From: Sphingobacteriaceae bacterium
GTDB taxonomy: Bacteria > Bacteroidota > Bacteroidia > Sphingobacteriales > Sphingobacteriaceae
DNA length: 64,000 bases
Reading direction: 5' to 3'
Assembly: GCA_029266635.1 (NCBI GenBank)
Contig: JAQSWM010000001.1
Span: 310,001 to 374,000 of the forward strand
The position numbers and the translations under genes were made by a program. Below the pieces are notes generated by a model that saw only the letters and a program-made list of their open reading frames with translations, made no database searches and had not been told where the DNA came from. This document shows, in pieces, positions 25,186 to 61,618 of this stretch; the stretch's first letter is position 1; every line of letters begins with the position of its first letter.

Positions 25186-25216
25186 TTTGTTATAATAAAA
25201 TGGTTGTTTATTATTG
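25186..25216 (+). promoter_or_regulatory. Promoter of the SusC-SusD locus
   Basis: TTTG (25186-25189), 19 bases, TATTATTG (25209-25216), one mismatch to TAnnTTTG. The start codon is about 78 bases downstream. A 7-base inverted repeat, GTTGTTT (25203-25209) and AAACAAC (25224-25230), flanks the -7 box and could be an operator. Confidence 0.6.
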
Positions 25217-25294
25217 TAAATAGAAACAACAACCAACCAATTTTAAACCAGTTGCTTAGCTCTCGCGGGCGGGCAAGTATCTAATTAAACAATT

Positions 25295-28200
25295 ATGAAT
25301 AGTTTTTACCAAAGAACCGAACCCCGGCTCTGGGGATCAATTGGGCAACTCGTCTCCTTCTTTGCCAAGATCAGGTGCGTGGGCGCACCGTTGCTAGTAT
25401 TTGCGGCTATTATTCCGTTGATGACCTGTATGGCCTTTTCAGCACAAGCCGCATCAGTATCCGTGGCAGCAGACACCATTGTCACGAAAGGAGTAATCAG
25501 CGATAACACCGGTCCCCTTCCGGGTGTGTCGGTTGTTTTGAAATCAGATAAAAACATCGGCACCGTTACAGATGCCAATGGCCGGTTTAGCCTGAGAGTT
25601 CCCGCGAATGGCACATTAGTTATCAGTTCAGTCGGCTTTATAACGCAAGAGGTTCAAATCAATGGGAGACAGTCGCTGGCTCTTACATTGATGGATGATG
25701 TGAAATCACTCAATGAAGTAGTGGTAATTGGATACGGAACGCAAAGTCGCGAAAAGCTGATAGGTTCGGTTGCACAGGTTTCCGGTGAGGACATTGCTGA
25801 ACGACCGGTTTCCCAATTGAAACAAGCGCTTACAGGACAACTGCCGGGTGTTATCATCACGCAGCGTAGTGGCCAACCGGGAGTTGGTAGTGGCAGGATT
25901 AGTGTGAGGGGCGTCGGTTCATTCGGTGCTTCGCAAGATGCGCTCATATTAGTTGATGGAATTATTGTTAATAATTTCAATGATATAGACCCAAATGATG
26001 TTGAAAATATCTCAGTATTAAAAGATGCTTCTACCGCAGCAATCTACGGGTCACGTGCCTCTAACGGTGTGATCCTGGTAACCACAAAGAGCGGAAAGCT
26101 AGGCGATCCTAAATTCACCTTCAATTCATACGCGGCTAAACAAAAGCCTACAGTATTTCCTGATTACATTAACTCTTGGGAATACCAGCAATTGTTGTTT
26201 GAAGCCCAGAATGGAACATCTCAACTTACTCCTGATCAGGTTGCAGAGGTGGAAAAGTATCGTGCACAGAATGATATTAATTATCCAAATAATGATTTCC
26301 TGGATAAAACAATCTCTAAAGACGGGCTTCAAGTTGGTAACAGTATTGCTGCAAGCGGAGGCACTGAAAAAACCAAATACAATTTTTCATTTGGTAATTT
26401 GTATCAGGATGGGATGGTAGAGAAAAACAATTATACACGTTATAACTTGCGCCTCAACCTGAACACTGCTCTTTCCAAAAAATTCAACTTTACCACGCGT
26501 CTTGCGGCTATATCATCGAAGGTTAATGAACCGATGGCGCCTCCCGGAGGCACTGCAACTGATATGCTTGGAATAATCGGACAAGCAGCCCGATTTGCAA
26601 ATACATTGATCGACGTTTATCCAAATGGAGATTATGGAGTTGGCCTTGCCAATGGTGGCACTGCCGTTTCTGACCTTGCGAGCAAATCATTTACGACAGA
26701 TAAATCGTTGAATTTAAACGCAAATCTTCGCCTTGATTATAAACCGATCTCGGATTTGACCTTGTCATTTGTGCCTGGCTATCGTCGTAACGATGGACGT
26801 GTAACTACATTCCGTGCCTCCATGCGGTTAAATGACAATATAACGCTCGGACCAAACACTCTTCGGGAAAACTACTCAGGAAATGAGTATTACATCCTTC
26901 AGGGGCTTGCGGACTATAAAAAATCTTTAGGAAAGCATGACATCGACATACTTGGAGGCTACTCTTATGAAGATTTTAAGGGTAACAGCATCATGGCTTT
27001 CCGCGATAACCTACCAAGCAATGATCTTACCGTATTGGACTTTTCTTCCCCGCAAAATCAGCAATCAGGTGGAAATGGCAATGAATATGCTTTGGAGTCT
27101 CAGTTTCTGCGGGTAGCTTATAATTATGAAAGCAAATACTTATTGCAGGGCACAGTCCGCAGAGATGGTTCATCGCGTTTCCCCACTTCCCAGAAATATG
27201 CAGTATTTCCCTCTGTAGGTGCTGCCTGGCGTGTTGCCGAAGAGCCGTTTATCAGAGACAAATTTTCATGGCTGAATGAATTTAAGGTAAAAGCGTCCTG
27301 GGGAATTTTAGGAAATCAGGAAATTGGCGAGTATCCGTACCAAAATACGCTGGTTTCCAATTCGAATACCTCATATGTATTTGGCGGTCAAATAACTCCG
27401 GGTGCTGCCAGAACACGCCTTGTAGATAGTACACTCCATTGGGAATCTACCAGAACGGCCGATATTGGCTTAGAAGTAGCTCTGCTAAGAAATACAGTTA
27501 ATTTTTCTGCAACCTATTTTAACAGGGTTACTGACGAAATTCTGATTAGCCCGAACTCCAGCGTGTCAAATGTTTTAGGTTTTAATTTATCTCAGCAAAA
27601 CTCAGGGAAACTATTAAACAGAGGGCTCGAGTTTACTGCCGGGTATAACAACAAGTTCGGTAAGTTCGGATTCAATGTCGCGGCGAACCTCACTGTATTA
27701 AAGAACAAAGTGCTTGATATGGGGGTTGGCAATATCCTTCAGCCGAATGGGCTGATTGGCGACGGAACAAATTTCATAGGCTATCCAAGTGTCGGCAACG
27801 GCTATGATTCCTATTATGGGTATATAGCGGATGGCATGTTCACAAGCGCTCAGGATGTTATTGATTACGAAACAACTGCAGACCAACAAGCTATAAATGC
27901 TAATCCAAAACCTGGTGATATCCGGTACAAAGACATTAGCGGGCCAAACGGAGTGCCGGATGGCAAGGTCGATGCTACCTATGACCGTGCTGTATTAGGC
28001 AGCCAAATCCCTAAATATAGCTACGGAGCGAGTATTGGCGCCAGTTATAAAGGATTTGACGTAAGCGCATTGATCCAGGGCGTCGCAGGAGTACAGGGTC
28101 GACTACAGGGATATGCCGGATGGGCGCTTTATAATAATTATGGAAACATTCAGCGCTGGCAGTATGAAGGCAGGTGGACTGAACAAAACCCTGACAGAAA

Positions 28201-28501
28201 CGCCAAATATCCACGCATTGAGCAGATCCCGGGAAGCGGCGCTCCTCCGAATACCACCCTGTCATCTTTTTGGATACTTAATGGTGCCTACACGCGGGTT
28301 AGAAATATTCAGTTAGGCTATAACATTCCTAAACAAACATTCAGCCGCCTTGGAGTATCTAATGCCAGAATTTACTTTACTGTAGAAAACCCGGTAACTA
28401 TTAGTCATTACTATCAAGGCTGGGACCCTGAGATGGTTGGAAATTCAAATTTCTATCCACTGATGACTAATTACACGGTAGGTTTAAACGTCAATTTTTA
28501 A
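25295..28501 (+). CDS. SusC/RagA family TonB-dependent outer-membrane transporter
   Basis: 1068 residues. Long signal region (to about 53), carboxypeptidase-D-like regulatory domain (about 63-140, GPLPGVSVVLK to GFITQEVQI), TonB box region EVVVIGYG (about 143-150), plug (KQALTGQLPGVII to ILVTTKSG, about 180-265) and a 22-strand barrel ending in LNVNF. It imports oligosaccharides across the outer membrane. There is no N-terminal STN domain, so signalling to an anti-sigma factor is unlikely. The paired susD starts nine bases downstream. It opens a large PUL. Confidence 0.97.
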   Translation: MNSFYQRTEPRLWGSIGQLVSFFAKIRCVGAPLLVFAAIIPLMTCMAFSAQAASVSVAADTIVTKGVISDNTGPLPGVSVVLKSDKNIGTVTDANGRFSLRVPANGTLVISSVGFITQEVQINGRQSLALTLMDDVKSLNEVVVIGYGTQSREKLIGSVAQVSGEDIAERPVSQLKQALTGQLPGVIITQRSGQPGVGSGRISVRGVGSFGASQDALILVDGIIVNNFNDIDPNDVENISVLKDASTAAIYGSRASNGVILVTTKSGKLGDPKFTFNSYAAKQKPTVFPDYINSWEYQQLLFEAQNGTSQLTPDQVAEVEKYRAQNDINYPNNDFLDKTISKDGLQVGNSIAASGGTEKTKYNFSFGNLYQDGMVEKNNYTRYNLRLNLNTALSKKFNFTTRLAAISSKVNEPMAPPGGTATDMLGIIGQAARFANTLIDVYPNGDYGVGLANGGTAVSDLASKSFTTDKSLNLNANLRLDYKPISDLTLSFVPGYRRNDGRVTTFRASMRLNDNITLGPNTLRENYSGNEYYILQGLADYKKSLGKHDIDILGGYSYEDFKGNSIMAFRDNLPSNDLTVLDFSSPQNQQSGGNGNEYALESQFLRVAYNYESKYLLQGTVRRDGSSRFPTSQKYAVFPSVGAAWRVAEEPFIRDKFSWLNEFKVKASWGILGNQEIGEYPYQNTLVSNSNTSYVFGGQITPGAARTRLVDSTLHWESTRTADIGLEVALLRNTVNFSATYFNRVTDEILISPNSSVSNVLGFNLSQQNSGKLLNRGLEFTAGYNNKFGKFGFNVAANLTVLKNKVLDMGVGNILQPNGLIGDGTNFIGYPSVGNGYDSYYGYIADGMFTSAQDVIDYETTADQQAINANPKPGDIRYKDISGPNGVPDGKVDATYDRAVLGSQIPKYSYGASIGASYKGFDVSALIQGVAGVQGRLQGYAGWALYNNYGNIQRWQYEGRWTEQNPDRNAKYPRIEQIPGSGAPPNTTLSSFWILNGAYTRVRNIQLGYNIPKQTFSRLGVSNARIYFTVENPVTISHYYQGWDPEMVGNSNFYPLMTNYTVGLNVNF

Positions 28502-28510
28502 TATAAGAAC

Positions 28511-30160
28511 ATGAAAAATCTATATAAATATTGCTCAGTGGTTCTTTGTTTAACATTCCTGGGTTTTTCTTCCTGTAAAAAGGATTTGGAAAAATCGCCT
28601 TTAGACGAGTTCGACCGTGGAGATTTCTGGACCACAGAAGCCAATGCAAACCTTGCGCTTACAGCAGTGTATCGGGGAAATCTTGACGGCAATGGAGCCA
28701 GCCAGAGCCCCACATCGTGGTGGTCTTACCAGGCTTTAGTTTTTCTTGAAGGAGCAACAGACAATGCTTATCATGGCCAAGGCGATAATACCTCCATCCA
28801 TAAGCTGACTAATGGCACCCTAAATGCATCAGTCGGAATTTTGGGCCTATTTTGGACACCGTCGTATCGGATTATTGCGTTAAGCAACGATTTTCTCGAA
28901 AACATAGGGAAAGTATCGATGGATGATGCCAAGAAAAAACGCATGATCGCTGAAGTACGATTCTTACGTGCCAGCCAGTATTTTTATCTATCGCAGCATT
29001 TCGGATCCGTTCCATTGGTAACGAAGGTATTGACTCCAGAAGAAGCCAATACGGTTGACAAAGCTTCTAAGCAGGTCGTTGTTGATTTCGTTTTAAGCGA
29101 GTATCAAGCTGCGATACCGGATTTGCCCCGTTTTAGAGACATCAAACCGAGCGAGATTGGGAGGGCAAGCAAGCAAGCTGCTCTGGCATTTTTAGGCCGC
29201 ATCCAGCTAGCCCAAAAGTTGTATGTTGATGCGGCAACGACCTACAAAACGATTATTGACTTCAATGACAATCAGATTGATCCTAACTATGTGAGTATTT
29301 TCCTCGAATCCAATGAAAACAGTTCAGAAAACATATTCAGCACGCAATTTCTGAAAGACGTTTTTGCTAATGTTATCCACCAACACATTGCGCCAAGGAC
29401 CGTTGGTGGGTTTACTTTAATCAATCCACTGGCAAACCTGATGGAGGCGTATCAGTTCACAGATGGAACTACTTTTTCTTACACAGATCCTCGGTATGAT
29501 TATACCGATTTGGGCAAAAACAGAGATCCACGGCTTAGATATACAATCTACTACAATGGCTCACCTTATAGAGATTTTCGAATCTATACCCACCCGGATT
29601 CTTCTAAATCAACAGACAGGATAACAAACCTGAATTCTAAAACTGGGTATTTGGTAAAAAAATACATAGATGAAGGTTTTACCGGAAGTTTCACCACTGG
29701 ATACGGGGGAAATGTCCCAATTATCCGTTATGCAGAGGTTTTATTGAGTTATCTTGAAGCCAAGCTTGAAGCCGGGCAGCCAATCGATCAAGCTTTGTTG
29801 AACCAGACTATCAATAAAGTCAGAGGAAGAGCTTCGGTGAACATGCCGCCAATCACACAAACAAACCCCACATTGCTACGTCCCATATTACGAAATGAGC
29901 GCAGGGTAGAGTTGGCTATGGAGGGTATTCGCTTGTGGGATTTGCTGAGATGGGGCATTGCTGACCAGGCTCTTAAAGGCGATTTTTACGGGCATCCCTT
30001 CCCTGTGTCGAAAACGGCAATCAAGAAGAAGAGCGCTGCCACGCCGGCAGATCCATTTAAACGCTGGTATGTGACTACACGCAATTTTCGTAAGGGGGTT
30101 GATGAATATTGGCCAATTCCGCAGAGCGAGGTAAATATTAATCCCAAATTAGGCCAATAA
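28511..30160 (+). CDS. SusD/RagB family glycan-binding lipoprotein
   Basis: 549 residues with a lipoprotein signal (GFSSCKKD, Cys22). The N-terminal SusD-like region (EKSPLDEFDRGDFW to AEVRFLRA) and the C-terminal RagB/SusD domain (NKVRGRASVNMPP, LRNERRVELAMEGIRLWDLLRWG) are both present. It forms the lid on the SusC barrel and binds the target glycan at the cell surface. It follows susC directly. Downstream enzymes begin after 155 bases. Confidence 0.97.
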   Translation: MKNLYKYCSVVLCLTFLGFSSCKKDLEKSPLDEFDRGDFWTTEANANLALTAVYRGNLDGNGASQSPTSWWSYQALVFLEGATDNAYHGQGDNTSIHKLTNGTLNASVGILGLFWTPSYRIIALSNDFLENIGKVSMDDAKKKRMIAEVRFLRASQYFYLSQHFGSVPLVTKVLTPEEANTVDKASKQVVVDFVLSEYQAAIPDLPRFRDIKPSEIGRASKQAALAFLGRIQLAQKLYVDAATTYKTIIDFNDNQIDPNYVSIFLESNENSSENIFSTQFLKDVFANVIHQHIAPRTVGGFTLINPLANLMEAYQFTDGTTFSYTDPRYDYTDLGKNRDPRLRYTIYYNGSPYRDFRIYTHPDSSKSTDRITNLNSKTGYLVKKYIDEGFTGSFTTGYGGNVPIIRYAEVLLSYLEAKLEAGQPIDQALLNQTINKVRGRASVNMPPITQTNPTLLRPILRNERRVELAMEGIRLWDLLRWGIADQALKGDFYGHPFPVSKTAIKKKSAATPADPFKRWYVTTRNFRKGVDEYWPIPQSEVNINPKLGQ

Positions 30161-30178
30161 ATAAGGTTTAGCTAACTA

Positions 30179-30316
30179 ATGGACTTGGGATTCATACCCT
30201 CACAGGAGGGCAGACAAGCCGTTGATGAAAAAATAGCTGTAACTGCAATGGTTGCAAAGGATATGGATACAGGGGGACCTTACAGTACGCATACTTGCAC
30301 GACTAAAGTTTTATAA
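30179..30316 (+). CDS. Short open frame between susD and A1, possibly a gene remnant
   Basis: 45 codons from ATG 30179 to TAA 30314-30316, whose last A is the first base of the A1 start codon (TAATG junction). The translation contains SQEGRQAVDEKIAVTAM and MDTGGPYSTHTC, which looks protein-like, but I recognise no family. It may be a leader peptide coupled to A1 or the tail of a deleted gene. Confidence 0.3.
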   Translation: MDLGFIPSQEGRQAVDEKIAVTAMVAKDMDTGGPYSTHTCTTKVL

Positions 30317-31926
30317 TGAGAAGACTAAAAGTAGGTTTAATTGCATTAGCAAGCTTTTGTATGCATAGTTATGCGCAGGACAGAAATCTGACCCCGATGG
30401 GTGAAATTGCGTTGTCGGAATCATTAGTCCCAATACGGCCTGGTATACCTGGAAAACTACTTTTCTGGAACCAGTACGCCCACCAGTTTATTTATGCTCC
30501 GGCATTTGACTACCGTTCTGTGAGCGGTGCAATGAACTACCGCTATAATATAACAAGCCGAGGCAAACTATACACGTTTGAAAGCAAGGTGCCGTATTCG
30601 CCGCTAAGCAGTGTTTGGAAAGATATGCCCACGGGAGCTTTCAGACTTAACGTCATTGCCCTAAATGCTTCAGGAGACAGCATCGCCTCTGCCGGGGAAG
30701 GGACCTATTACAAGTCCAGCTTCTTTAACGGGCCTTACTATGAACCGGTAATGCCGTACGACCAAAGTGCGAGAACCGCTTTGGATACGATCATGAACCG
30801 GAGCTATATTCTGTATTGGTTGGATCACAAGAAACCTGACCCGTCTTATGAACTTTATCGTTTCGCGGCTAAAGTACTCAGTTCGGTAGTTGCTGCGGGA
30901 GCTACCCATGCTATATCGAAGCCCGGCACGGAAGATGTCAAACGTTCCGTACAGATAGCAGAAATCGTTGCCGATTATCTTCTAAATATAAGTTTTCCCA
31001 AGGGCACTCCGCTGGAATACTTTCCTCCGACCTATTATGGGTTTCCTCATCTTATTGGGGCTAATGGGTCGCACATGCGCCTGAATAATACGGTTACCTT
31101 TTTAGTTCCGAATGCGGGTCATGCTTATCTGGATCTTTATTCCGTTACAAAAAACGAGAAATACCTGGAAGCGGCGAAAAAAATTGCAGGTACGCTGCAA
31201 AAAACGCAACTGCCCAGCGGAACTTGGTTTTTTTCAATGGATAACCAGACGGGTAAGCCAACGGCCGAAAATCTCCTTATTCCCACCGCTGTGGTCAATT
31301 ATTTCGACCGCCTTCGGACTGAGTTTGGTGTAAAAGGTCTGGAAGAATCAACAGCTCACGCAGTGAACTGGCTGATGAACAACCCAGTTAAGACCTACAA
31401 TTGGCAGGCGCAATTTGAAGATATAAAACCCCATGAGCCCTACTATAATCAAAGCAGGGAGCAGGCGTGTGAACTGGCTATTTATCTGATGAAGAACAAA
31501 AGAGATATTGGCATCGCTGAGAACCTCATCCGCTACGCAGAAGATCAGTTTGTAATATGGGAGCACCCCGGTCCTTATATTGACAAAAGCAAGGGAGGAA
31601 CGCGGCCAAGTCCGGGATGGATCTCAGTTAATTGGATCGCCCCCTCCGTCCAGGAACAATATACATACTGGATGCCCGTAACGCGGTCTGCAGGAATTAT
31701 GCTAGATACCTATTGGCAGGCATATGTAGCTACTAAAAAGGATATCTATCTGGCAAAGGCAAAATCTATTGCCAATACGCTGACGGTTGTTCAGAAAGAA
31801 AACAATAATGCCTATCCGGGATATTTTACCAAATATACTATGCAGGAATGGATAAACGGTGTGGTGTATCCAGGAAGAACAATGATGGCATTTCAAAGAT
31901 ACCTGAATAACCAAAATCTCAATTAA
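30316..31926 (+). CDS. PUL protein A1: secreted, Ig-like plus probable alpha/alpha-barrel
   Basis: 536 residues, signal peptide to about SYAQ (21). It is one of five paralogs in this locus. Shared features: RPGIPG (about 40-45), FWN then HQFIYAPAFDY (about 59-69), an Ig/FN3-like region to about 150, then helices that fit an (alpha/alpha) barrel: AGHAYLDLYS, REQACELAIYL, EDQFVIWE, PSVQEQY. A1 is the most diverged: W replaces otherwise common residues in some helices and its proline-rich hinge differs. Probably carbohydrate-active, but no family is recognised. It begins at the TAATG junction with the short frame. Confidence 0.8.
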   Translation: MRRLKVGLIALASFCMHSYAQDRNLTPMGEIALSESLVPIRPGIPGKLLFWNQYAHQFIYAPAFDYRSVSGAMNYRYNITSRGKLYTFESKVPYSPLSSVWKDMPTGAFRLNVIALNASGDSIASAGEGTYYKSSFFNGPYYEPVMPYDQSARTALDTIMNRSYILYWLDHKKPDPSYELYRFAAKVLSSVVAAGATHAISKPGTEDVKRSVQIAEIVADYLLNISFPKGTPLEYFPPTYYGFPHLIGANGSHMRLNNTVTFLVPNAGHAYLDLYSVTKNEKYLEAAKKIAGTLQKTQLPSGTWFFSMDNQTGKPTAENLLIPTAVVNYFDRLRTEFGVKGLEESTAHAVNWLMNNPVKTYNWQAQFEDIKPHEPYYNQSREQACELAIYLMKNKRDIGIAENLIRYAEDQFVIWEHPGPYIDKSKGGTRPSPGWISVNWIAPSVQEQYTYWMPVTRSAGIMLDTYWQAYVATKKDIYLAKAKSIANTLTVVQKENNNAYPGYFTKYTMQEWINGVVYPGRTMMAFQRYLNNQNLN

Positions 31927-32033
31927 GGTTAGGAGAAATTTGACTGTTGTTCAAAAGATGTTAGATAAATATACCTTGGTTGTTAATTAGAAATTGCCAA
32001 GTGAACGAAATTATATTTCTTTATCAAATACTC

Positions 32034-34013
32034 ATGAATCAAATACTTAAAAAAATAAGGCATGTTGGATATATAAAATTGCAATTGGCTGCCTTAGTTA
32101 TGACTGCTCTTTTTCTGCCGGTACGAGCCGCTGAAGTAAAGCAACCTCTGATTGAACTGGTTAAAGGAAAAAAAGCTGTTGCCACCATAATTTATTCCAA
32201 TGACGTTCCGCTTTATGGATTAACTGCGGGCAGGTTGGCCGCATATATCGAAAAACAAACAGATATACAGGTCCCGGTGACTGCCGGAAATTTCATGCCA
32301 TCGGATAAAAACACCACGGTAATACTTGATGGGACAACGGATAAAAGCCTGCTGGGAAAATATGGGCTTAAAGCCGAACTGAAATCAAATCACAGCGATA
32401 CATATCTTCTTAAGACCGTTTGGCATAATAATATGCCTTTCATCATCCTGGCGGGGAACTCGCCTTCTGCTGTAAGTTTTGCCGCTTTCCGCCTGATGGA
32501 AGAACTTGAGGTTACAGGGAAAAATGCCTTTGTTAGACAGATGGACATCCGGGCTGAACCTTTTTTTAAGAACAGGCTGATTTCGATGGGAAATATCTGG
32601 CAAGCAGGCTTAGAAATCGAAAGGAAATATAATATTGAAGCATGGCCTGTGGATAAAATCTTAAAGTCTGTTGATATGTACAATTCATTCGGTTTCAATG
32701 GCCTCGAAGTGCTTGATCGTTTTAATGAAGGTTACCTTACGCCTTGTTATGGGATAACTCGTGAAGAATGGAGGAATAAAATATGGGCCATGGCAGACCG
32801 GGCGCATTTAAATGGCCAGAAGGTATATTTACGTGCCTGGGGCAATGCGGTAATGGCTGACCCCAAAAAATTTAAAACGGACTCACTGTCAACAAGGATA
32901 CCCCGCAGATTTGAGAATTTTTGCCCTGACCTGCCGGAAGATAGGAAGCGATGGGAAACAGAAATAAGGGATTATTACGTTCCAAATTATGCAAACCACA
33001 TAGATGTTTTCATGGGACATTGGGCAGATCGGGGCGGATGCAAAGACCCGCTATCCAAGGCAACAATTGACGATTGCCTGAGACTGCAAATGGAGTTGCA
33101 AGATTCATTCAGAAAAATTAATCCTGAAATTCAAACGTCCTTCAGTTTTTGGCGTGTGAATGCCAATGCCTGGCGTGGATACCAGGATCATCACTCGGTG
33201 AGCGCTTCTCCGATTCTAAATAAAGATGTTGTTATGGTCCAGGCGACCCGGTCTGAAAGTGATTTGTACTCAGCAAAATTAACATCTGATTTTATTGCTG
33301 ACGGGCATAAAGCAGCGGTTTGGTCGTGGTCAAGAGCCGATGTGGAGGCCTATCAAAATGATGCTTCCATGCTTATTCGTACACACAGCATTGGAAAATA
33401 CTTCAGTGATCTGCCAACTTCAGCCAAAGTGCTGGAATGGCATAATATCGAACGCTGCCAGCATGGTTTAGGGAATGTCATTAATTTTTACGTAGCCGGG
33501 AAGCTTTTGTGGAATCCGAAAGCGAATGTAGATACCCTTATGCAGGATTTCGCGGTTAAGATGTTTGGGGAAAATAATGCCCCTTACATTGTCGAAGCCT
33601 ATAACGTCATGGAAAAAGTACGCGTTACTGATAATAAAGACAAACCTTCCCCTGAAAACCCCCGCCAAATGACCTCTCTTTGTCAGAAAGCTCTTAAAGC
33701 ACTAGATAAAGTAAAATTAGATCCAAATTTCCGTCCCCGACTAGACCTACTAATTTCTCCGCAGCAAATAAAAAAAGATTTGGTAGATGCTTTAACCGTT
33801 ATTAAAGAGTATTCTACAGCGGTTAGCGAGGATTTGCCGACACTGGACTCAGCAATTAAGGCAAAAGATAAGCATCAGCAGGAAAAGCTCTTGAATACAT
33901 TAAAAGTAAAAATCGACACTTGGGATAACTCAATCGCCGGTTTATTCGAAGCCCGGGCAATGGAGCAAGAATTAAATAGAAGAGGAATAAAAATAGGAGA
34001 AGAATATTTATAA
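32034..34013 (+). CDS. PUL protein B1: alpha-glucuronidase-like N-domain plus TIM barrel, secreted
   Basis: 659 residues from the ATG at 32034; an earlier TTG (31980) would add 18 residues before the signal peptide. Signal ends near VRAAE (33). Residues about 35-165 form an alpha/beta domain of the type found before GH67, GH20 and GH115 barrels (VATIIYSNDVPLYGL, ILAGNSPSAVSFAAFRLMEE). A barrel follows with NRLISMGNIW, FNGLEVLDRFNEGY, GQKVYLRAWGNAV, FCPDLPEDRKRW and GHWADRGGC. The paralog B2 is very similar. The domain order suggests a glycosidase, perhaps for a uronic-acid glycan; catalytic residues cannot be assigned with confidence. Confidence 0.78.
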   Translation: MNQILKKIRHVGYIKLQLAALVMTALFLPVRAAEVKQPLIELVKGKKAVATIIYSNDVPLYGLTAGRLAAYIEKQTDIQVPVTAGNFMPSDKNTTVILDGTTDKSLLGKYGLKAELKSNHSDTYLLKTVWHNNMPFIILAGNSPSAVSFAAFRLMEELEVTGKNAFVRQMDIRAEPFFKNRLISMGNIWQAGLEIERKYNIEAWPVDKILKSVDMYNSFGFNGLEVLDRFNEGYLTPCYGITREEWRNKIWAMADRAHLNGQKVYLRAWGNAVMADPKKFKTDSLSTRIPRRFENFCPDLPEDRKRWETEIRDYYVPNYANHIDVFMGHWADRGGCKDPLSKATIDDCLRLQMELQDSFRKINPEIQTSFSFWRVNANAWRGYQDHHSVSASPILNKDVVMVQATRSESDLYSAKLTSDFIADGHKAAVWSWSRADVEAYQNDASMLIRTHSIGKYFSDLPTSAKVLEWHNIERCQHGLGNVINFYVAGKLLWNPKANVDTLMQDFAVKMFGENNAPYIVEAYNVMEKVRVTDNKDKPSPENPRQMTSLCQKALKALDKVKLDPNFRPRLDLLISPQQIKKDLVDALTVIKEYSTAVSEDLPTLDSAIKAKDKHQQEKLLNTLKVKIDTWDNSIAGLFEARAMEQELNRRGIKIGEEYL

Positions 34014-34058
34014 TCCCCTTAAAGAATAAAATAAGCAAGCTTCAAATTAAAGAACTGC

Positions 34059-34098
34059 AGCAGCGTGAAGCTCGCTAATCCGCCAGACTCCACGCTGC
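34059..34098 (+). other. Inverted repeat between B1 and A2
   Basis: Eight-base arms GCAGCGTG (34059-34066) and CACGCTGC (34091-34098) around a 24-base loop, then TTTAC. Too little U-run for a clear terminator; it may trim or stabilise the PUL mRNA between B1 and A2. Confidence 0.4.
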
Positions 34099-34119
34099 TT
34101 TACAAAATTAATAGCCAAT

Positions 34120-35763: not shown

Positions 35764-35778
35764 AATACTACCAGCTAC

Positions 35779-37389: not shown

Positions 37390-37424
37390 TCCAATACCTT
37401 AGTGAATAAACAGTGAATAAGAAC

Positions 37425-39029
37425 ATGAATAAGAAAACCATTTACGTACTGATTGCCTTTGCAGCAACAGTCGCGGGCTGTAAGTCCCTCAACGGAACAA
37501 ACACGAACGAAAAATCCTTAGGTGAGATAGCAAAACAAGAATCTGCCACCCCAATTCGTCCGGGAAAACCCGGCGTAGCACCTTTCTGGAACGCGAAAGC
37601 TCACCAATTCATTTACGCTCCCGCCTTCGATTACAAGCTTGTGCCCGGTGCTGTAAAATATCAATATAAAGTTCGGTCGCTGGTTGATTCTTCTGACCAC
37701 AACTTCGAAAGCGATGTTCCTTACACCCCATTGAGCAAAATATGGACAGCGCTCCCTATTGGTTTCTTCACTTTAGAAGTAAACGGCTTATCCGCCACAG
37801 GCGCAAACCTTGGAACAGCCGGCAAAGGCAAATACTACCACGCTGCTTATTTTAACGGGCCCTATTATGAGCCGGTTATGCCTTATGATAAAAGTGCCAT
37901 GATCGCTTTGGACACGCTTTTCAATAGAAGTTATGTCAATTATTGGTACACCCACAAGGTTCCTGATCCTGATTACGTAAACTACCGCTACCCGGCCAAA
38001 ATCATCAGTGCGCTGGTTATCGGTGCCGTAACCTATGCAAGGCTGAAACCGAACACACCCGAAGCAACCCGCTCTACAGAGCTGGCAAAAACTATCGCTG
38101 ATTATTTGCTGAGCATCCGGTATCCAAAAGGATCTGCATGGGAGTATTTTGTCCCAACATATTATGGGCCACGCATCGGGAAAGATCCCAAATCGCATAT
38201 GCAGCTCACTAATAATTTCACCATTATGGGTGTAGATGCCGGCAATGCGTTCCTGGATTTATACAACCTGAATGGTGATAAGAAATATTTAGAAGCGGCA
38301 AAACAGATAGCCCAAACGTATTTGAAAACACAGTTGCCAAGCGGAACCTGGTACCAGTTTGTGAATTACCAGACCGGAGAGCCCACGGCTCCAAACCTTA
38401 CCATCCCTACCTCGATTATCAATTATTTAGGGCGGATGACACGCGAATACAAAATGGATGGATTGGAGAACGCTACCACGAAAGCTGTAAACTGGGTGAT
38501 GGAGAATCCTGTAAAAACTTTCAACTGGCAGGGGCAATTTGAAGACGTATATGCCCGTCCGCCTTACGAGAACCTTGCCAGAGAACAGGCCTGCGATATG
38601 GCAGTTTACCTTTTCACGAATAAAAAAGATTTCAAGCTGGCTGACGAACTGCTTCGTTTCTCAGAAGATCAGTTTATAATTTGGGAGAAGCCTGTGCCAA
38701 TTACCATCGGAAAGTACAAAGGGCCTTCCTATAATTCCAATAGCTGGATTACGCCTAATGTACTTGAACAATATGTTTACTGGATGCCTGTAGGACGCTC
38801 CGCAGGTGTAATGGTGGATGCCTATCATCAGGCTTACAAGGCTACCCACAACGAGATGTACCTGGCAAAAGCCAAAGCTATCGCCAACGCTTTTACACTG
38901 AACCAAAAGCTCCATAACGGCAACTACGATACCTACTTCACCAAATATGTCCTGGATGGCTGGCTGAACAGCACAGTTTATCCTGCCAAGGTGTTGATGA
39001 ACCTTCAAAATGATTTGAAGAAAAATTAA
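37425..39029 (+). CDS. PUL protein A4: lipoprotein member of the A family
   Basis: 534 residues from ATG 37425; a GTG at 37413 would add four residues. Unlike A1-A3 and A5, the signal ends in a lipobox, TVAGC, with Cys19, followed by KSLNGTN. The body follows the family: RPGKPG, PFWN, HQFIYAPAFDYK, FNGPYYEPVMPYDKSAM, REQACDMAVYLF, EDQFIIWEKP and WITPNVLEQY. The lipid anchor suggests that A4 works at the outer membrane while the others are soluble. Confidence 0.8.
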   Translation: MNKKTIYVLIAFAATVAGCKSLNGTNTNEKSLGEIAKQESATPIRPGKPGVAPFWNAKAHQFIYAPAFDYKLVPGAVKYQYKVRSLVDSSDHNFESDVPYTPLSKIWTALPIGFFTLEVNGLSATGANLGTAGKGKYYHAAYFNGPYYEPVMPYDKSAMIALDTLFNRSYVNYWYTHKVPDPDYVNYRYPAKIISALVIGAVTYARLKPNTPEATRSTELAKTIADYLLSIRYPKGSAWEYFVPTYYGPRIGKDPKSHMQLTNNFTIMGVDAGNAFLDLYNLNGDKKYLEAAKQIAQTYLKTQLPSGTWYQFVNYQTGEPTAPNLTIPTSIINYLGRMTREYKMDGLENATTKAVNWVMENPVKTFNWQGQFEDVYARPPYENLAREQACDMAVYLFTNKKDFKLADELLRFSEDQFIIWEKPVPITIGKYKGPSYNSNSWITPNVLEQYVYWMPVGRSAGVMVDAYHQAYKATHNEMYLAKAKAIANAFTLNQKLHNGNYDTYFTKYVLDGWLNSTVYPAKVLMNLQNDLKKN

Positions 39030-39063
39030 CTGATTAAAATGCTTTGCTGATCTAAGGACTAAT

Positions 39064-41034
39064 ATGCTAATCAAATCAACTTCAATTAAAAGATCAAGGT
39101 TATGGTTTATCTGCACTGGCCTGACTGCTATTTCCGCAATTCAGGTTCAGGCGGCCGAAGCGACAAAAACTCAGATTGAACTGGTTAGCCACAAAAAAGC
39201 AGCAGCCATAATTGTTTATAATAACGATTCGCCGGTTTATTCTTTAACAGCAAACAAGCTTGCTAGTTACATTCGAAGCCAGACAGATGTAGGCCTTCAA
39301 ACAGTAACTGACGTTGATTTCAAGCCAAAGGCCAAAGTCGCTACTATACTCCTCGATGGGGCAACAGATAAAAGCCTGCTAAAGAAATATGGGCTCACAG
39401 CTACTGTGAAGTCTAGCCGGCATGACGCTTACAGTATCCAAACGTTATGGCATAACTCTATGGCATTTATAGTCTTAGCCGGAAACTCGCCTGATGCTGT
39501 AAAGTTTGCTGCTTACAGGCTGATGGAAGAGCTGGATATCCAAAAAGGGAATGCCTCGGTGAAGCCACTTGATATACAAGCTGAACCGTTTTTTAAAAAC
39601 CGACTGGTTTCCATGGGAAACATCTGGCGCACCGCTATAGAAATAGAGCGGAAATATAACATTGAAGCCTGGCCCGTTGACAGGATTGTCAAGTCGGTTG
39701 ATATGTATGATTCGTTCGGCTTTAATGGTTTTGAGGTACTGGACCGTTTTAACGAAGGATACCTGATGCCCTGCTACGGAATCACCCGCGAGCAGTGGCG
39801 GAACAAAGTGTGGGCAATTGCAGATCGGGCGCACCTAAATGGGCAGAAAGTTTATTTACGTGCCTGGGGCAATGCGGTGATGGATATTCCCGAAGGCTTT
39901 AAAGCAGAAGGCCCAACTTCTAATGTGCCCCGGATATTTAAAACATTTTGTCCTGATCTGCCTGAAGACAGAAAGCGCTGGGAAGAAGAGATTCGCGATT
40001 ACTATGTTCCTAATTACGCCAGCCATATAGATAATTTCATTGGCCATTGGGCCGATGCCGGCGGATGCCGCGACCCCAAATCGCAAGCCACCATTGACGA
40101 CTGCCTGCGCCTGCACATGGAATTGCAAAGCGCCTTCCGGAAAGTTAACCCGGACATTCAGACATCCTTTAGCTTCTGGCACATGGATGCAAATAACTGG
40201 CGGCAGTATAAAGACCATCATTCTGTCAGCGCCTCTCCTATTCTGAGCAAAGATGTAATTATGACCCAGGCTACGCGGTCGCATACCATTCCTTATTCTG
40301 AAAAACTGACAAGTGATTTTATTGCAGATGGCCATCCTGCCGCAACCTGGACGTGGATACGCGGAGATGCTGAATCGTTTCATAACGACGCCTCGTTGCT
40401 TATACGCGTTCATTCCTTAGGTAAGTATTTCAGCGGATTGCCCGCTTCTGCTCAAGCATTAGATTGGCATAATGTGGAGCGCTGCCAGCACGGAATGGCC
40501 AATGTTGTGAATTACTATGTAGCCGGAAAGCTGATGTGGGATCCTAAAGCAGATGTAGATAAGCTGCTTAAGGACTTTGCTGTAAAAATGTTCGGGCAGA
40601 AGAATGCGCCTACTATTGTGGAAGCGTATAATACCATGGAAAAGGTTCGGGTTTCTGACAACATGGATAAGAAACCTGCTCCCAAAAATCCCTCGGAAGT
40701 AGCTCAGTTATGCCACAATGCTCTTCGAAAACTCAATAATATGAAAATTGAAGCAGGATACCGCCCGCGGCTAGGGCTGGTGATCACGCCGCAACAGATC
40801 CGACGCGATTTAATAGATGCACTGACAGTAATAGAAGAATATGCCCTTTGTTATAGCAGGGAATTGCCGGAACTGGATAATGCAATAAAGGAAAAGAATA
40901 AGGATGCTGAAGACAAACTGATAAATAGCCTGAAGAATAAAATCAGCAACTGGGGCAGTTCAATAGCGGGCTTATTTGAAGCACGTGCGATGGAGCAGCA
41001 GCTACAGAAGAGGGGGTATCAGATTGGAGCTTAA
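39064..41034 (+). CDS. PUL protein B2: close paralog of B1
   Basis: 656 residues, signal to about VQAAE (30). It matches B1 along its whole length, including FNGFEVLDRFNEGYLMPCYGITREQWRNK, GQKVYLRAWGNAVM, FCPDLPEDRKRWEEEIRDYYVPNYASHID, and HWADAGGC. The C-terminal helical region (RAMEQQLQKRG) matches too. The pair is the product of a duplication inside the PUL. Same tentative role as B1: alpha-glucuronidase-like N-domain with a TIM barrel, substrate unknown. Confidence 0.78.
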   Translation: MLIKSTSIKRSRLWFICTGLTAISAIQVQAAEATKTQIELVSHKKAAAIIVYNNDSPVYSLTANKLASYIRSQTDVGLQTVTDVDFKPKAKVATILLDGATDKSLLKKYGLTATVKSSRHDAYSIQTLWHNSMAFIVLAGNSPDAVKFAAYRLMEELDIQKGNASVKPLDIQAEPFFKNRLVSMGNIWRTAIEIERKYNIEAWPVDRIVKSVDMYDSFGFNGFEVLDRFNEGYLMPCYGITREQWRNKVWAIADRAHLNGQKVYLRAWGNAVMDIPEGFKAEGPTSNVPRIFKTFCPDLPEDRKRWEEEIRDYYVPNYASHIDNFIGHWADAGGCRDPKSQATIDDCLRLHMELQSAFRKVNPDIQTSFSFWHMDANNWRQYKDHHSVSASPILSKDVIMTQATRSHTIPYSEKLTSDFIADGHPAATWTWIRGDAESFHNDASLLIRVHSLGKYFSGLPASAQALDWHNVERCQHGMANVVNYYVAGKLMWDPKADVDKLLKDFAVKMFGQKNAPTIVEAYNTMEKVRVSDNMDKKPAPKNPSEVAQLCHNALRKLNNMKIEAGYRPRLGLVITPQQIRRDLIDALTVIEEYALCYSRELPELDNAIKEKNKDAEDKLINSLKNKISNWGSSIAGLFEARAMEQQLQKRGYQIGA

Positions 41035-41116
41035 CCTTAATATGCGTTCTGGGTACAAAAAAATCATTCTTAGAAAGATAAATTCTCATACTTCTATTGT
41101 GGAAAATTTTCAATCA

Positions 41117-43240
41117 ATGAGAAAAGTACTTATTTTACTTTGTGCGTTTTTACCGACAGCCGCAGCCTATTCGCAAACATCTGCACACCTTTCCAAAATC
41201 TTAGTTGAACTGCCGGGCGGCAAAATGGGCGATACCGAATTGATCGCCATCAAGCGTATTCGCGAATACACCAACGCTATTGTACAGGTAGAAACCTCCT
41301 CACCAAAAAAAGAGAATAAAAAAGAATTTGATTTAACTGTTATTCTGGGAACTTCAGGCGACTCGCAGGAGCTAAAAAACGAATGGCAAAAACACGCTTC
41401 TGCCAGGGAGGATTCGTACCTGCTTCAAACGTCATCTAACCGCCCGCTCACGGTGCTCGCATCGGGTACAAATAAACGGGGAACGCTTTACGCAGCATAT
41501 CAGTTGGCGGACTTATTAAAAGCTGAAGCAGACATTTCGAAGCTAAACTTATACTTTGAACCAAAAATACAGCAGAGGTATGTTTCTTTTGGCGCCACCA
41601 CCCACGGCCGGCGATATTACCGCCCGGCTCTTTACTACCAAACGCTTAAGGAACTACCCCGATATGGTTACAATGGTGTACTCATTTATCCTGGCGGCGG
41701 CACTCCTATCGGCCGGCAAAGCTCCCCTGTAGCCGAAACAGAGTCGGGGAAATTATATCGGGATACAGCAAATACCCAGCAATGGAAAAACTGGTTTAAG
41801 GAATTAAAAACGTATCAGCACGATATTGTTATGACGATACCGCCCATGATTCCCCCGGGCTATACCAATAAAGAAATTGTAGATTTTTACGATGGCGGCC
41901 CGGAACCAAAAGACTACATCACCAATTTAAAATCGCATTACAAGGAGTTCTTGCAGCTCCTTACCCATGATTATCCTGAAATCGACTCCTATTTGTTCAA
42001 TTCAACTGAAGGGGCGACTTTCGGGAGGAACGAGCGGTTCTTTGGTGCGCCTGCGCCCGATCGGTTTCCAAACCAAAAATACATGGAAAACAATGAGCGC
42101 ATAATGCGGGCCTATTTTGATGTGCTTTCTGAGTTCTTTAAATCAGATCTGCACAAGGTCTCGTTTTGGACGCATTCCTTCGGCCTTACCAGCGAAGGAA
42201 TAACAAAAATGCGGGAAATTCTCTTTCAGTATCCGCAAGTGTTGATTTTGGAAGATGACTACTGGAACAATAATTTGTGGCCAAATAACATTCCGGCTAT
42301 GAAGTATTTATCCGAAGGCCTCAGGGCAAAAATCCATACGAAAAACCCTTTCGGCATGTTTCAGATTGCAACAGATGGCGAATATTTCGGAGGCGGCAGC
42401 TTACCGAATGCTTACCCCGGCTCGCACGTCAGATCTGCAAAAGATGCTTTGGCGAGAAATGCCCGAATGGTTGTGCAGCGCTTGGACCTGCACGACCGTA
42501 CTCCCTACGGAACCTCCTTTGGCACGATGGAAATAGTCCCGATAACTGCATCCAAACAGTTGTGGAATCCTGTACCGGATGAAGCAACAATATGGCAGGA
42601 TTGGGCGAGCCGCAGGTTTGGAAAGAAAGCAGCTCCTTTTGTTGTTGATGCGCTTAAACAATCTGAGCCGATCCTGGCGAACGGGCTTCTTTGCAATGGC
42701 ATTGACCTATTAGGCAACGGCTCTGAATTCAACACCAAAATGTGGTCAAAAGAAGATAATGGCTTCGCTCACTTTCAACTTTTTGGAAAGCCGGGCAGGA
42801 AATTAGTGCAAAAGACAGATGCTGATATTATCTATAGCGAGGAGTATGCCTCTTACCAAATGGATACGCACACAATTGGCATTAACGATTTTCTTCAAAG
42901 CCGCGATAAGGCACTGCAGTCGGTTGCGTATGCTTTAGATCAGATACAAAAAGCAAAACCGTATCTAAAGGCGGAAGATTATACGATGCTCAATGGCATT
43001 TTTGTGAACGGGCGGAATGTGATCAATGCACTTAAGCTTTTAGGGTCGGCAGCTTATGCAACAAACATCATGATGTCGAACTTCGATCATGTAAAAGACC
43101 CGAAGGCTTTGTTTGATCGTTCCATTGCCAACCTGGAAGCATACATTAAAGCAGGCAAGCTCATCCCTGAAATGAATCAGAACTTACAAACGATTGCAAA
43201 AAATTATAAACAGGTTGGCAACAAAGCCTCTCCCAGATAA
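41117..43240 (+). CDS. PUL protein C: diverged B-like glycosidase candidate
   Basis: 707 residues from ATG 41117, which begins a good signal peptide (MRKVLILLCAFLPTAAAYSQ); the open frame starts earlier, at 40976, but that part overlaps B2. An N-domain of the B type (about 25-160, GTNKRGTLYAAYQLADLL) precedes a barrel with RYVSFGATTHGRRYY, YNGVLIYPGGG, NSTEGATFGRNERFFG (possible catalytic Glu), VSFWTHSFG and ILEDDYWNNN. The insertions make it larger than B1/B2. It ends six bases before A5. Confidence 0.7.
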   Translation: MRKVLILLCAFLPTAAAYSQTSAHLSKILVELPGGKMGDTELIAIKRIREYTNAIVQVETSSPKKENKKEFDLTVILGTSGDSQELKNEWQKHASAREDSYLLQTSSNRPLTVLASGTNKRGTLYAAYQLADLLKAEADISKLNLYFEPKIQQRYVSFGATTHGRRYYRPALYYQTLKELPRYGYNGVLIYPGGGTPIGRQSSPVAETESGKLYRDTANTQQWKNWFKELKTYQHDIVMTIPPMIPPGYTNKEIVDFYDGGPEPKDYITNLKSHYKEFLQLLTHDYPEIDSYLFNSTEGATFGRNERFFGAPAPDRFPNQKYMENNERIMRAYFDVLSEFFKSDLHKVSFWTHSFGLTSEGITKMREILFQYPQVLILEDDYWNNNLWPNNIPAMKYLSEGLRAKIHTKNPFGMFQIATDGEYFGGGSLPNAYPGSHVRSAKDALARNARMVVQRLDLHDRTPYGTSFGTMEIVPITASKQLWNPVPDEATIWQDWASRRFGKKAAPFVVDALKQSEPILANGLLCNGIDLLGNGSEFNTKMWSKEDNGFAHFQLFGKPGRKLVQKTDADIIYSEEYASYQMDTHTIGINDFLQSRDKALQSVAYALDQIQKAKPYLKAEDYTMLNGIFVNGRNVINALKLLGSAAYATNIMMSNFDHVKDPKALFDRSIANLEAYIKAGKLIPEMNQNLQTIAKNYKQVGNKASPR

Positions 43241-43246
43241 TCTGAT

Positions 43247-44854
43247 ATGAAAAAGAATATTGCTTTTTACGCTCTTCTAATCGCTAATGTGAGTTTGTGC
43301 TTTCCTGCTTTAGCACAAACATCTCCTAAGAAATCTTTTGGTGAAATAGCGAAAGAAGAATCCATTACACCTATTCGCCCCGGTGTGCCGGGCAAAACTC
43401 CGTTTTGGAATGCCAACGCCCACCAGTTCATTTATGCGCCTGCTTTTGAATACAAAATTGTACCGGGAGCAAGCAAATACAGGTACGACATCAAGACGGA
43501 GAATAATGGAATTCTAAGCTTCGAGACCAATGTCCCCTACTCGCCTTTAAGCAAGGTGTGGGCATCAATGCCAACCGGGTTCTTTAACCTGCAAGTGACA
43601 GCATTAAACAGCAAGGGAGAAAGCATCGGCACAGCGGGAAACGGCAAATACTACAAAGCAGCTTACTTCAACGGCCCGTATCACACGCCCGTAATGCCTT
43701 ATGATGAAAGTGCCAAAATCGCTTTAGACAATCTCCTGCATAAAGACTACGTAAATTACTGGCTCACCAATAAAGTTCCCGATCCTGATTATGCGCTTTA
43801 CCGCTATCCTGCTAAGATCTACAGCGCTCTGGTAGTTGGAGCCGTTACACACGCCCGGCTGAAGAAAGGCACTGCTGACGCCAAACGATCTGAAGAACTG
43901 GCGAAAGTAGTGGCAGATTACATGATAGGCATCAGCTATCCAAAAGGATCAGTTTGGGAGTATTTTGTGCCAACTTATTACGGTCCCCGCATCCCGAATA
44001 AACCGGGCTCGCACATCAACCTGAAAAGTAATTTTACCGTGATGGGTGCTGACGCAGGAAACGCATTCCTCGACTTGTACGATTTCACAAAAGACAGCAA
44101 GTACTTAGATGCCGCAAAGCGGATTGCTGATACTTACCTGAAGAACCAGATGAAAAACGGCAGCTGGTACCTGTACGCAGATTACCAGAATGGCGGACCA
44201 GTGGCTCCCAATATTTCCATTCCAACTGCGGTGATTAACTACTTTGATCGGTTGAGGAAAGATTACGCAGTGAAAGGCCTGGAGGAGCCGACTAAAAAGG
44301 CAGTGAACTGGGTAATGGAGAATCCAGTGAAAACGTTTAACTGGCAGGCTCAGTTCGAAGATGTAAAAGCCATGCCGCCATATAAGAGGCACAGCCGCGA
44401 GCAGGCATGTGATATGGCAGTATACCTGATGAAGAACCACACTCAAATTCCGCTTGCGGAAGAATTAATCCGTTTTGCGGAAGATCAGTTTGTCATCTGG
44501 GAGAAACCTCTGCCAATAATCATCCACGACACGCCCGACAAAGAAGTTAGTCCGGGCTGGAACTCAAAAAACTGGATTACGCCTTCAGTACAAGAGCAAT
44601 ACGGATTCTTTATGCCAGTGAGCAGAACAGCAGGAGTAATGATCGATACCTACTGGCAAGCTTACGCGACGACAAAAAAAGAGATTTACAAAGCGAAAGC
44701 TCAATCTATAGCCAATGCACTCACGCTTGTTCAGAAAGAGCATAACGGCGACTATCCTACTATGTTCACCAAGTACGACATGAACTTTTGGTTGAATAGC
44801 GTGGTTTATCCTGCTAAAGTGATGATGGATTTGGCTGATAATCTGAAAAAATAA
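43247..44854 (+). CDS. PUL protein A5: secreted, Ig-like plus probable alpha/alpha-barrel
   Basis: 535 residues, signal to about ALAQ (24). RPGVPG at 44-49, PFWN at 52-55, HQFIYAPAFEYK at 59-70; Ig/FN3-like strands to about 150; helical domain to the end with AGNAFLDLYDF, SREQACDMAVYL, EDQFVIWEKP, NWITPSVQEQYGF and YPTMFTKY. It is closest in feel to A4, sharing FNGPY and YFVPTYYGPRI. It closes the PUL; a terminator follows. Confidence 0.8.
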   Translation: MKKNIAFYALLIANVSLCFPALAQTSPKKSFGEIAKEESITPIRPGVPGKTPFWNANAHQFIYAPAFEYKIVPGASKYRYDIKTENNGILSFETNVPYSPLSKVWASMPTGFFNLQVTALNSKGESIGTAGNGKYYKAAYFNGPYHTPVMPYDESAKIALDNLLHKDYVNYWLTNKVPDPDYALYRYPAKIYSALVVGAVTHARLKKGTADAKRSEELAKVVADYMIGISYPKGSVWEYFVPTYYGPRIPNKPGSHINLKSNFTVMGADAGNAFLDLYDFTKDSKYLDAAKRIADTYLKNQMKNGSWYLYADYQNGGPVAPNISIPTAVINYFDRLRKDYAVKGLEEPTKKAVNWVMENPVKTFNWQAQFEDVKAMPPYKRHSREQACDMAVYLMKNHTQIPLAEELIRFAEDQFVIWEKPLPIIIHDTPDKEVSPGWNSKNWITPSVQEQYGFFMPVSRTAGVMIDTYWQAYATTKKEIYKAKAQSIANALTLVQKEHNGDYPTMFTKYDMNFWLNSVVYPAKVMMDLADNLKK

Positions 44855-44857
44855 AGC

Positions 44858-44888
44858 GTATCGGCTGAGCTTTTGGTTTAGCCGATAC
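44858..44888. terminator. Bidirectional terminator at the end of the PUL
   Basis: Thirteen-base-pair stem with two G-U pairs (44858-44870 with 44876-44888) and TTTTG loop. It is flanked by A-rich sequence on the left and T-rich sequence on the right, and lies between A5 and the converging M16 gene. Its right edge touches the M16 stop codon. Confidence 0.75.
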
Positions 44889-57434: not shown

Positions 57435-57460
57435 TGATTTTTGTTGGTTAGTTTTTTTAT

Positions 57461-57497
57461 TGTTGTACCTGGCTTTGCCTGCCTGCTAAGTACAACA
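57461..57497 (-). promoter_or_regulatory. Operator-like inverted repeat before the GH43-like gene
   Basis: TGTTGTAC (57461-57468) and GTACAACA (57490-57497) form a perfect 8-base inverted repeat with 21 bases between, 27 bases upstream of the start codon. No regulator gene lies beside it in the window. Confidence 0.4.
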
Positions 57498-57664
57498 TCC
57501 AATATCCATCTTAGATTTGTTACAATTGTTGCTGATACTAGCATTTTTGTAGTCGGCAGCTTGCCAGCACCTCAGATCGACAAAAGAACTTATTTGCTTA
57601 GCTGATAAACTGTACGCATTTAGGAGAATGATACTGATTTGTCCACTAGCCTGTCGAAGCACTT

Positions 57665-57832
57665 GTCACTGAACAGCCTGCCGGTCACCGGCGAGAAGTA
57701 GAAGCGTGTCATGCTGGGACTCTTGAAGCCCCACCATGAGCAGCCTCCCCGACCAACCGCTGGGAGTCGAAGCGCCACTCACTACGATGTCACGCTGAGC
57801 AGCCTGCCAGACCACTGGCGGGGAGTCGAAGC
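57665..57832. repeat. Tandem degenerate repeat units
   Basis: Four imperfect units end in GAAGC: 57665-57705, 57708-57729, 57732-57773 and 57789-57832. They share GTCA(T/C)GCTGAGC and AGCCTGCC followed by GGAGTCGAAGC. A related sequence lies at 16532-16577. They lead directly into the CACT microsatellite. Confidence 0.6.
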
Positions 57833-57921
57833 CACTCACTCACTCACTCACTCACTCACTCACTCACTCACTCACTCACTACTCACTCACTCACTCACTC
57901 ACTACTCACCACTCACTACTC
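57833..57921. repeat. (CACT)n tetranucleotide microsatellite
   Basis: Twelve uninterrupted CACT units at 57833-57880, then broken CACT/ACTACTC runs up to 57921. It ends 13 bases from the stop of the PhyH gene and sits in the noncoding gap between that operon and the GH43-like gene. Confidence 0.9.
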
Positions 57922-57933
57922 AATACCCTACAA

Positions 57934-58761: not shown

Positions 58762-58773
58762 ATGCTTTTTAGT

Positions 58774-61614: not shown

Positions 61615-61618
61615 AGTA

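Follow-up and report, generated by a model that had tools for sequence, protein, structure and literature searches.

A polysaccharide utilization locus of a Sphingobacteriaceae bacterium with five copies of an uncharacterized protein family predicted to form (alpha/alpha)6 barrels

Within a window of 64,000 nucleotides from a Sphingobacteriaceae bacterium (assembly GCA_029266635.1; positions 310,001 to 374,000 of JAQSWM010000001.1, contig 1 of a draft genome of 3.6 Mb in 18 contigs, 96% complete), we found that positions 25295 to 44854 hold a polysaccharide utilization locus (PUL) of ordinary kind that is built from uncharacterized putative enzymes. It consists of susC, susD, and eight genes for secreted proteins, all on the + strand, in the order A1-B1-A2-A3-A4-B2-C-A5 after susCD, and five of the eight belong to one family (family A) that is spread over several phyla and yet is unnamed in Pfam and NCBIfam. 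Our preferred reading, which we put forward tentatively, is that the PUL serves one heteroglycan, that the A proteins are glycosidases acting through carboxylates, and that the sugar they free is oxidized by a route encoded on contig 8 of the same genome. Because it holds five natural variants of the family and has an apparent link to a catabolic pathway, the locus is a good place to find the activity of family A and the rules of its specificity.

Organization of the locus

The features of the locus are as follows (positions are those of the window).

susC, 25295-28501, + strand: SusC/RagA TonB-dependent outer-membrane receptor for glycan import (TIGR04056, 859.8 bits; Plug domain)
susD, 28511-30160, + strand: surface glycan-binding lipoprotein (PF07980, 161.3 bits, 5.6e-47)
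A1, 30316-31926, + strand: secreted, predicted (alpha/alpha)6-barrel enzyme; branches deepest among the five copies; a near-invariant position is substituted (T505G)
B1, 31980-34013, + strand: secreted DUF4838/GH67-like protein; signal-peptide start probably at 32034 (PF16126, 27.2 bits, cutoff 26.6)
Stem-loop in the B1-A2 gap, 34059-34099, + strand: -20.9 kcal/mol, z -3.7
A2, 34120-35763, + strand: predicted (alpha/alpha)6-barrel paralog; a near-invariant position is substituted (Q369M)
A3, 35779-37389, + strand: predicted (alpha/alpha)6-barrel paralog; sister of a Botryobacter ruber protein (support 100/100)
A4, 37413-39029, + strand: predicted (alpha/alpha)6-barrel paralog; lipobox VAGC by eye, likely lipoprotein
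B2, 39064-41034, + strand: second DUF4838/GH67-like protein (PF16126, 28.7 bits), 67% identical to B1
C, 40976-43240, + strand: secreted GH67-superfamily protein (PF03648, 25.9 bits, cutoff 24.3)
A5, 43247-44854, + strand: predicted (alpha/alpha)6-barrel paralog, the modeled copy; N381R at a near-invariant site
Terminator hairpin, 44858-44888, both strands: between A5 and the convergent M16 peptidase gene

Judged by sequence, the assignment of susC and susD is unambiguous, with TIGR04056 and PF07980 scores far over the cutoffs and a spacing of 9 bp between the two genes. The open reading frame of C starts within B2, its likely start being 41117, the first ATG with a signal peptide. As in other SusC/SusD-type PULs, secreted putative enzymes follow SusC and SusD on one strand up to a terminal terminator; unlike them, the locus carries five copies of one uncharacterized family, and gene calls together with a Pfam scan of the window proteins revealed neither a regulator gene nor any familiar glycan-active enzyme family or standard backbone enzyme inside it. 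A first-pass annotation made from the letters of the window had already described one strand with susC, susD, and eight secreted proteins, five A paralogs, two close B paralogs, a diverged relative C, and neither regulator nor backbone enzyme, and all of this agrees with our coordinates and counts. Its proposal of an undescribed system was too strong, since PULs with few uncharacterized families are already known. Predicted folds and weak family matches suggest that the co-located secreted proteins are enzymes.

On one side the locus borders an M23-type peptidase gene, and on the other it faces two M16 peptidase genes in convergent orientation (both named by eye). Its GC content is that of the remaining window, and the M16 pair is conserved, with no such PUL beside it, in all five relatives for which flanking sequence was read; thus, the PUL is lineage specific but not obviously a recent insertion.

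Transcript structure

At the end of the locus, a 14-bp hairpin (44858-44888) that faces the convergent M16 gene forms a stable structure on either strand (z -5.8 and -4.2), in line with the bidirectional terminator proposed in the first pass. The accompanying claim of a single promoter gained no support: the Bacteroidetes -33/-7 consensus was absent upstream of susC, its frequency across the window was not above chance, and a stem-loop lies in the B1-A2 gap (34014-34119), the widest gap between the enzyme genes. This stem-loop separates susCD-A1-B1 from A2-A3-A4-B2-C-A5, and it could be an internal attenuator or processing site that splits or tunes the transcript.

Family A is predicted to adopt an (alpha/alpha)6-barrel fold with conserved carboxylates

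The five A proteins are 48 to 62% identical to one another over their full length. Family matches were sought in Pfam, NCBIfam, PHROGs, and PDB, and no Pfam or NCBIfam model reached its cutoff for any A protein, so that, as first noted, curated models give family A no assignment. The sub-threshold Pfam matches were all toroid enzymes, the weak ones including pectate lyase 2 and C5-epimerase, and Pfam GH76 scored 11.7 bits on A2 and 14.3 bits on A4 (cutoff, 25.9), with no listed match for A1, A3, and A5. The AlphaFold2 model of A5, made from a 67-sequence alignment (mean predicted local distance difference test score [pLDDT], 94.5), shows a beta domain at the N terminus together with an (alpha/alpha)6 barrel. 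Its best structural match was cellobiose 2-epimerase (Z 29.6, root mean square deviation 3.3 over 334 residues), followed by GH76 (Z 27.6) and GH88 (Z ~24), all at ~10% identity, and the best sequence-profile match among solved structures was also a GH76 protein (4v1r, 1.1e-9). Thus, the earlier view that the families were mostly unknown stands for A where curated models are concerned and fails at the level of the superfamily.

Among the A relatives, D372 (67/67), D413 (67/67), E412 (66/66), and E450 (67/67) were invariant, E371 was kept in 65 of 67, and Q414 and Q451 were nearly invariant; Y244, Y379, Y452, polar N/Q residues, W54, W105, W172, and W418 were highly conserved. No histidine position of A5 reached at least 90% conservation among 62 core relatives. 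The conserved acidic clefts expected in the first pass gained support to the extent that these acidic residues are retained in all five copies. The AGE/cellobiose 2-epimerase family, which depends on catalytic histidines, shares the (alpha/alpha)6 barrel and provides the top structural match, but A differs from it in its ~10% identity, the missing conserved histidine, the added N-terminal beta domain, and secretion. Similarly, the GH76 alpha-mannanases share the barrel and the top profile match, whereas A is far under the Pfam GH76 cutoff; A has conserved acidic pairs (E371-D372 and E412-D413) that may or may not correspond to the catalytic aspartate pair in the GH76 cleft. Given four invariant carboxylates and no conserved histidine, in a fold whose epimerases rely on histidines, hydrolysis through carboxylates is the likeliest chemistry, and A is more probably a carboxylate glycosidase than an epimerase.

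Because the same barrel also hosts lyases, A could instead be a polysaccharide lyase or a uronyl-processing enzyme, which we consider unlikely. Proteins of the HepII_C/DUF4962 type accompany A in loci of Petrimonas and Maribellus and, judging from gene order, in one of a Prolixibacteraceae genome, as does Hepar_II_III_C in an Opitutaceae locus, and the conserved tyrosines and N/Q residues as well as the weak pectate lyase 2 and C5-epimerase matches would suit such an enzyme. However, no histidine is conserved, the polar residues that vary least are the four carboxylates, and the pathway genes near A (described below) suit oxidation of an aldose by a classical short-chain dehydrogenase/reductase (SDR) rather than unsaturated uronates. 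It is more improbable still that the A proteins are mainly noncatalytic glycan-binding or scaffold proteins: no member has a known activity and the four conserved tryptophans could line a putative binding site, but the predicted fold is one of enzymes and contains four invariant carboxylates, which speaks for catalysis, and if A were noncatalytic, B and C would be the only convincing enzymes left in the PUL. Redox-assisted glycoside cleavage by Gfo/Idh/MocA proteins was rejected, no such gene being present in this locus; such genes adjoin A in Petrimonas-type loci and adjoin a B relative in another genome (G168).

Scanning one genome per species yielded 70 A loci in Bacteroidota, Verrucomicrobiota, Lentisphaerota, KSB1, Planctomycetota, and Bacillota, and no convincing match was found in 394 other genomes sampled from the class, indicating a family that is widely but thinly distributed. 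One PUL type, conserved among Petrimonas, Maribellus, and their relatives (L024, L026, L018, and L014), comprises susC, susD, a large heparinase-II/DUF4962-like protein, a single A, and a Gfo/Idh/MocA oxidoreductase, and sulfatases flank A in Verrucomicrobia, Botryobacter, Rikenellaceae, and Lentisphaerota (L034, L009, L010, and L030).

Co-location of family A genes with genes of an oxidative sugar-acid pathway

A putative link that the first-pass annotation missed is that of family A to an oxidative sugar pathway, whose genes lie elsewhere in this genome. In Gramella sp. AN32, two A genes share a locus with an SDR, TauE, a DHDPS-type aldolase, an SSF symporter, an MR_MLE dehydratase, and an SMP-30 lactonase, together with AraC, a second SDR, an FAA hydrolase, and an MFS transporter; the best family of the FAA hydrolase is 2,4-didehydro-3-deoxy-L-rhamnonate hydrolase, under the cutoff. 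An SMP-30 lactonase gene directly adjoins A in Flavisolibacter (44% identical to the Gramella one) and in a Chitinophagales metagenome-assembled genome (MAG) (39%). Other loci of the closest clade include a Chloroflexi MAG with MR_MLE and DHDPS near A and an Opitutaceae MAG with an SDR. With SDRs excluded, pathway genes occurred in 4 of the 8 A loci of the closest clade versus 0 of 62 others (p 8e-5), and the enrichment persisted when Gramella was left out (3/7; p 6.7e-4).

The genome studied here has its own operon of this kind on contig 8 (222207-226518, corresponding to L158 7207-11518), in which the SDR, TauE, DHDPS, and MR_MLE genes are adjacent in that order and are followed by SSF; the operon is cut by the contig end. 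The order is nearly that of Gramella, with identities of 55% (SDR), 57% (TauE), 65% (DHDPS), 54% (MR_MLE), and 40% (SSF). A GntR-like regulator gene (named by eye) precedes the operon on the opposite strand, and the presence of a TauE exporter within a sugar-acid operon is unusual. Among 119 relatives, only one (G025) shares the contig-8 MR_MLE dehydratase, in a similar operon. G025 also has an A gene (E 2e-126), whose operon includes a further SDR, MR_MLE, and SSF (a sodium symporter) and is accompanied by a divergent AraC gene. This co-occurrence supports the link between A and the pathway without proving it.

The sulfofucolytic Entner-Doudoroff pathway comprises a classical SDR (PF13561), an MR_MLE protein (PF13378/PF02746), a lactonase, an aldolase (PF03328), and a TauE exporter (PMC12421959). 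The likeness to the pathway considered here extends to the SDR, MR_MLE, lactonase, and aldolase steps and to TauE (PMC12421959), whereas the aldolase here is of the DHDPS type instead of PF03328 and TauE lies within the operon. Oxidation of a uronate by the uronate dehydrogenase route was set aside for the contig-8 operon, which encodes an SDR of the classical type, judged against what is generally known of the SDR type of uronate dehydrogenases.

Proposed role of the locus

Taking these observations together, we infer the following role for the PUL. SusCD would bind and import oligosaccharides. The A proteins would be carboxylate-type glycosidases, the likely lipoprotein A4 working on the cell surface and the other four copies in the periplasm, each adapted to a different neighboring linkage, so that a single sugar could be removed from several contexts. 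B1, B2, and C may remove another, probably alpha-linked, substituent. The sugar released by A would be oxidized in the cytoplasm by a nonphosphorylative Entner-Doudoroff-type route, in which the SDR forms a lactone, a lactonase opens it, MR_MLE dehydrates the product, and the DHDPS-type aldolase splits it. Candidate sugars are a 6-deoxyhexose (L-rhamnose or L-fucose), a galactose-type sugar, or a sulfonated sugar, the last in view of TauE and of the likeness to the pathway for sulfofucose (PMC12421959).

A more specific version, in which A is a new glycoside hydrolase family releasing a hexose that is 6-deoxy or 6-sulfonated (sulfoquinovose- or sulfofucose-like) and is burned via a Bacteroidota-type SDR-TauE-DHDPS-MR_MLE route, with TauE exporting the sulfonate product, appears to us a long shot; if true, the glycan targeted by the PUL would contain a sulfonated or rare deoxy sugar. 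The substrates of TauE-family proteins are poorly known, and the idea of a sulfonated sugar therefore serves as a lead only.

Several points weigh against the proposed role. To our knowledge, no activity has been described for any member of family A. The contig-8 operon is unlinked to the PUL, with the contig ending inside it, and no SMP-30 lactonase homologue was found in this 96% complete genome at E 0.001, although another type of lactonase might serve the pathway. Most A loci fall outside the closest clade and are without pathway genes, and sulfatases, of which this locus has none, make up 9 of the 110 nearest neighbors of A genes. The A protein of G025 shares 25% identity with A3 and falls in a distant clade, and the rarity figures for G025 come from searches with different profiles. 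Finally, the B2 model, from a three-sequence alignment, had a pLDDT of 40.8 and gave no usable fold.

It is possible, if doubtful, that the association between A and the pathway is limited to a few loci and has no bearing on this PUL, whose sugars would enter ordinary phosphorylated catabolism. The unlinked operon and undetected SMP-30 lactonase would fit this, as would the fact that sulfatases and Gfo/Idh/MocA proteins are commoner next neighbors across family A; the enrichment of pathway genes in the closest clade, the synteny of the genome's own operon with that of Gramella, and the co-occurrence in G025 argue for the oxidative route instead.

Five old copies with probably divergent specificities

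In the phylogeny of family A, A1 to A5 fall within a supported clade of 14 that includes proteins from Flavisolibacter, a Chitinophagales MAG, Botryobacter, Gramella, and a Rikenellaceae MAG, among others. A3 and the Botryobacter protein are sisters (100/100), and nested among A3 and A4 are the proteins from Flavisolibacter and the Chitinophagales MAG. Since proteins of other genera are nested among them, the copies are old rather than recent tandem duplicates, and their split predates several genera. Three copies carry substitutions at near-invariant sites (A5 N381R, A2 Q369M, and A1 T505G), and A4 alone has a lipobox (VAGC), the other four resembling ordinary secreted proteins by eye.

As far as sequence can tell, divergent specificity with some division of location fits the five copies best. 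The first-pass annotation had offered two explanations, stepwise removal of similar linkages or different localization of one activity: the tree and the substitutions at near-invariant sites favor divergent specificities over dosage alone, and different localization receives partial support from the A4 lipobox. That the copies are instead redundant, giving a higher gene dosage of a single activity with no division of labor, seems quite unlikely; their 48 to 62% identity and fully retained acidic residues would be compatible with it, but it sits poorly with copies that predate the divergence from Botryobacter, Flavisolibacter, and the Chitinophagales MAG, with the three substitutions, and with a lipobox in one copy only.

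Families B and C are distant outliers of the GH67/DUF4838 group

B1 and B2 pass the DUF4838 cutoff by 0.6 and 2.1 bits over ~46 residues (profile positions 276-322 of 325), and C passes that of the GH67 N-terminal domain at 25.9 bits. The relation of C to B, noted in the first pass, is weak, amounting to a single local match of 43 amino acids (40% identity, E about 1e-5). In alignments with true GH67 proteins of other genomes (hhalign), the match of B spanned the N domain plus the first part of the barrel (probability 96, E 3.7e-9) and that of C the N domain (probability 82, E 1e-5), and a STEG motif of C aligned near the GH67 ANSEG/KANSEG acid motif in an alignment of 20% identity. These likenesses to GH67 alpha-glucuronidases contrast with the lack of Pfam matches to the GH67 middle or C-terminal domain in C (at E up to 1; a true GH67 protein scores 510 and 327 bits) and in B, and with the absence of the KNGPxD stretch of true GH67 from C. 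Likewise, B1 and B2 score over the DUF4838 cutoff, but most of B is uncovered by that family, and the nearest full-length relative found outside this genome is 22% identical. Thus, B and C appear to be distant outliers of the GH67/DUF4838 superfamily of N-domain and TIM-barrel proteins, not members of GH67, and here, too, "mostly unknown" overstated the case.

No B or C homologue was detected at 1e-5 near the 70 A loci, and scans of viral contigs gave no B or C match. Outside this genome, one partial weak match to B was seen among the relatives, and the G168 protein was its sole real distant relative in the phylum; a literature search for DUF4838 returned one incidental mention. The pairing of A with DUF4838/GH67-like proteins nevertheless recurs: a full DUF4838 protein adjoins A in an Ignavibacteriae MAG (L032), and a Prolixibacteraceae MAG encodes a DUF4838/GH67-like protein upstream of A.

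Related SusD proteins and other features of the window

The nearest SusD proteins are 50% (G092) and 41% (G051) identical, and the neighborhoods of their genes held no informative enzyme genes besides one sulfatase-like gene (by eye). In the window itself, four genes that are sugar related by eye lie on the - strand at 56352-63838, encoding a GH43-like lipoprotein, a phytanoyl-dioxygenase-like protein, and a pair of large secreted proteins; the last of the four genes is close to the window edge. Also on the - strand, a gene at 20718-21749 beside ribosomal protein genes encodes a secreted TIM-barrel-like protein, possibly a glycosidase, and adjoins an FkbM-like methyltransferase gene (all by eye).

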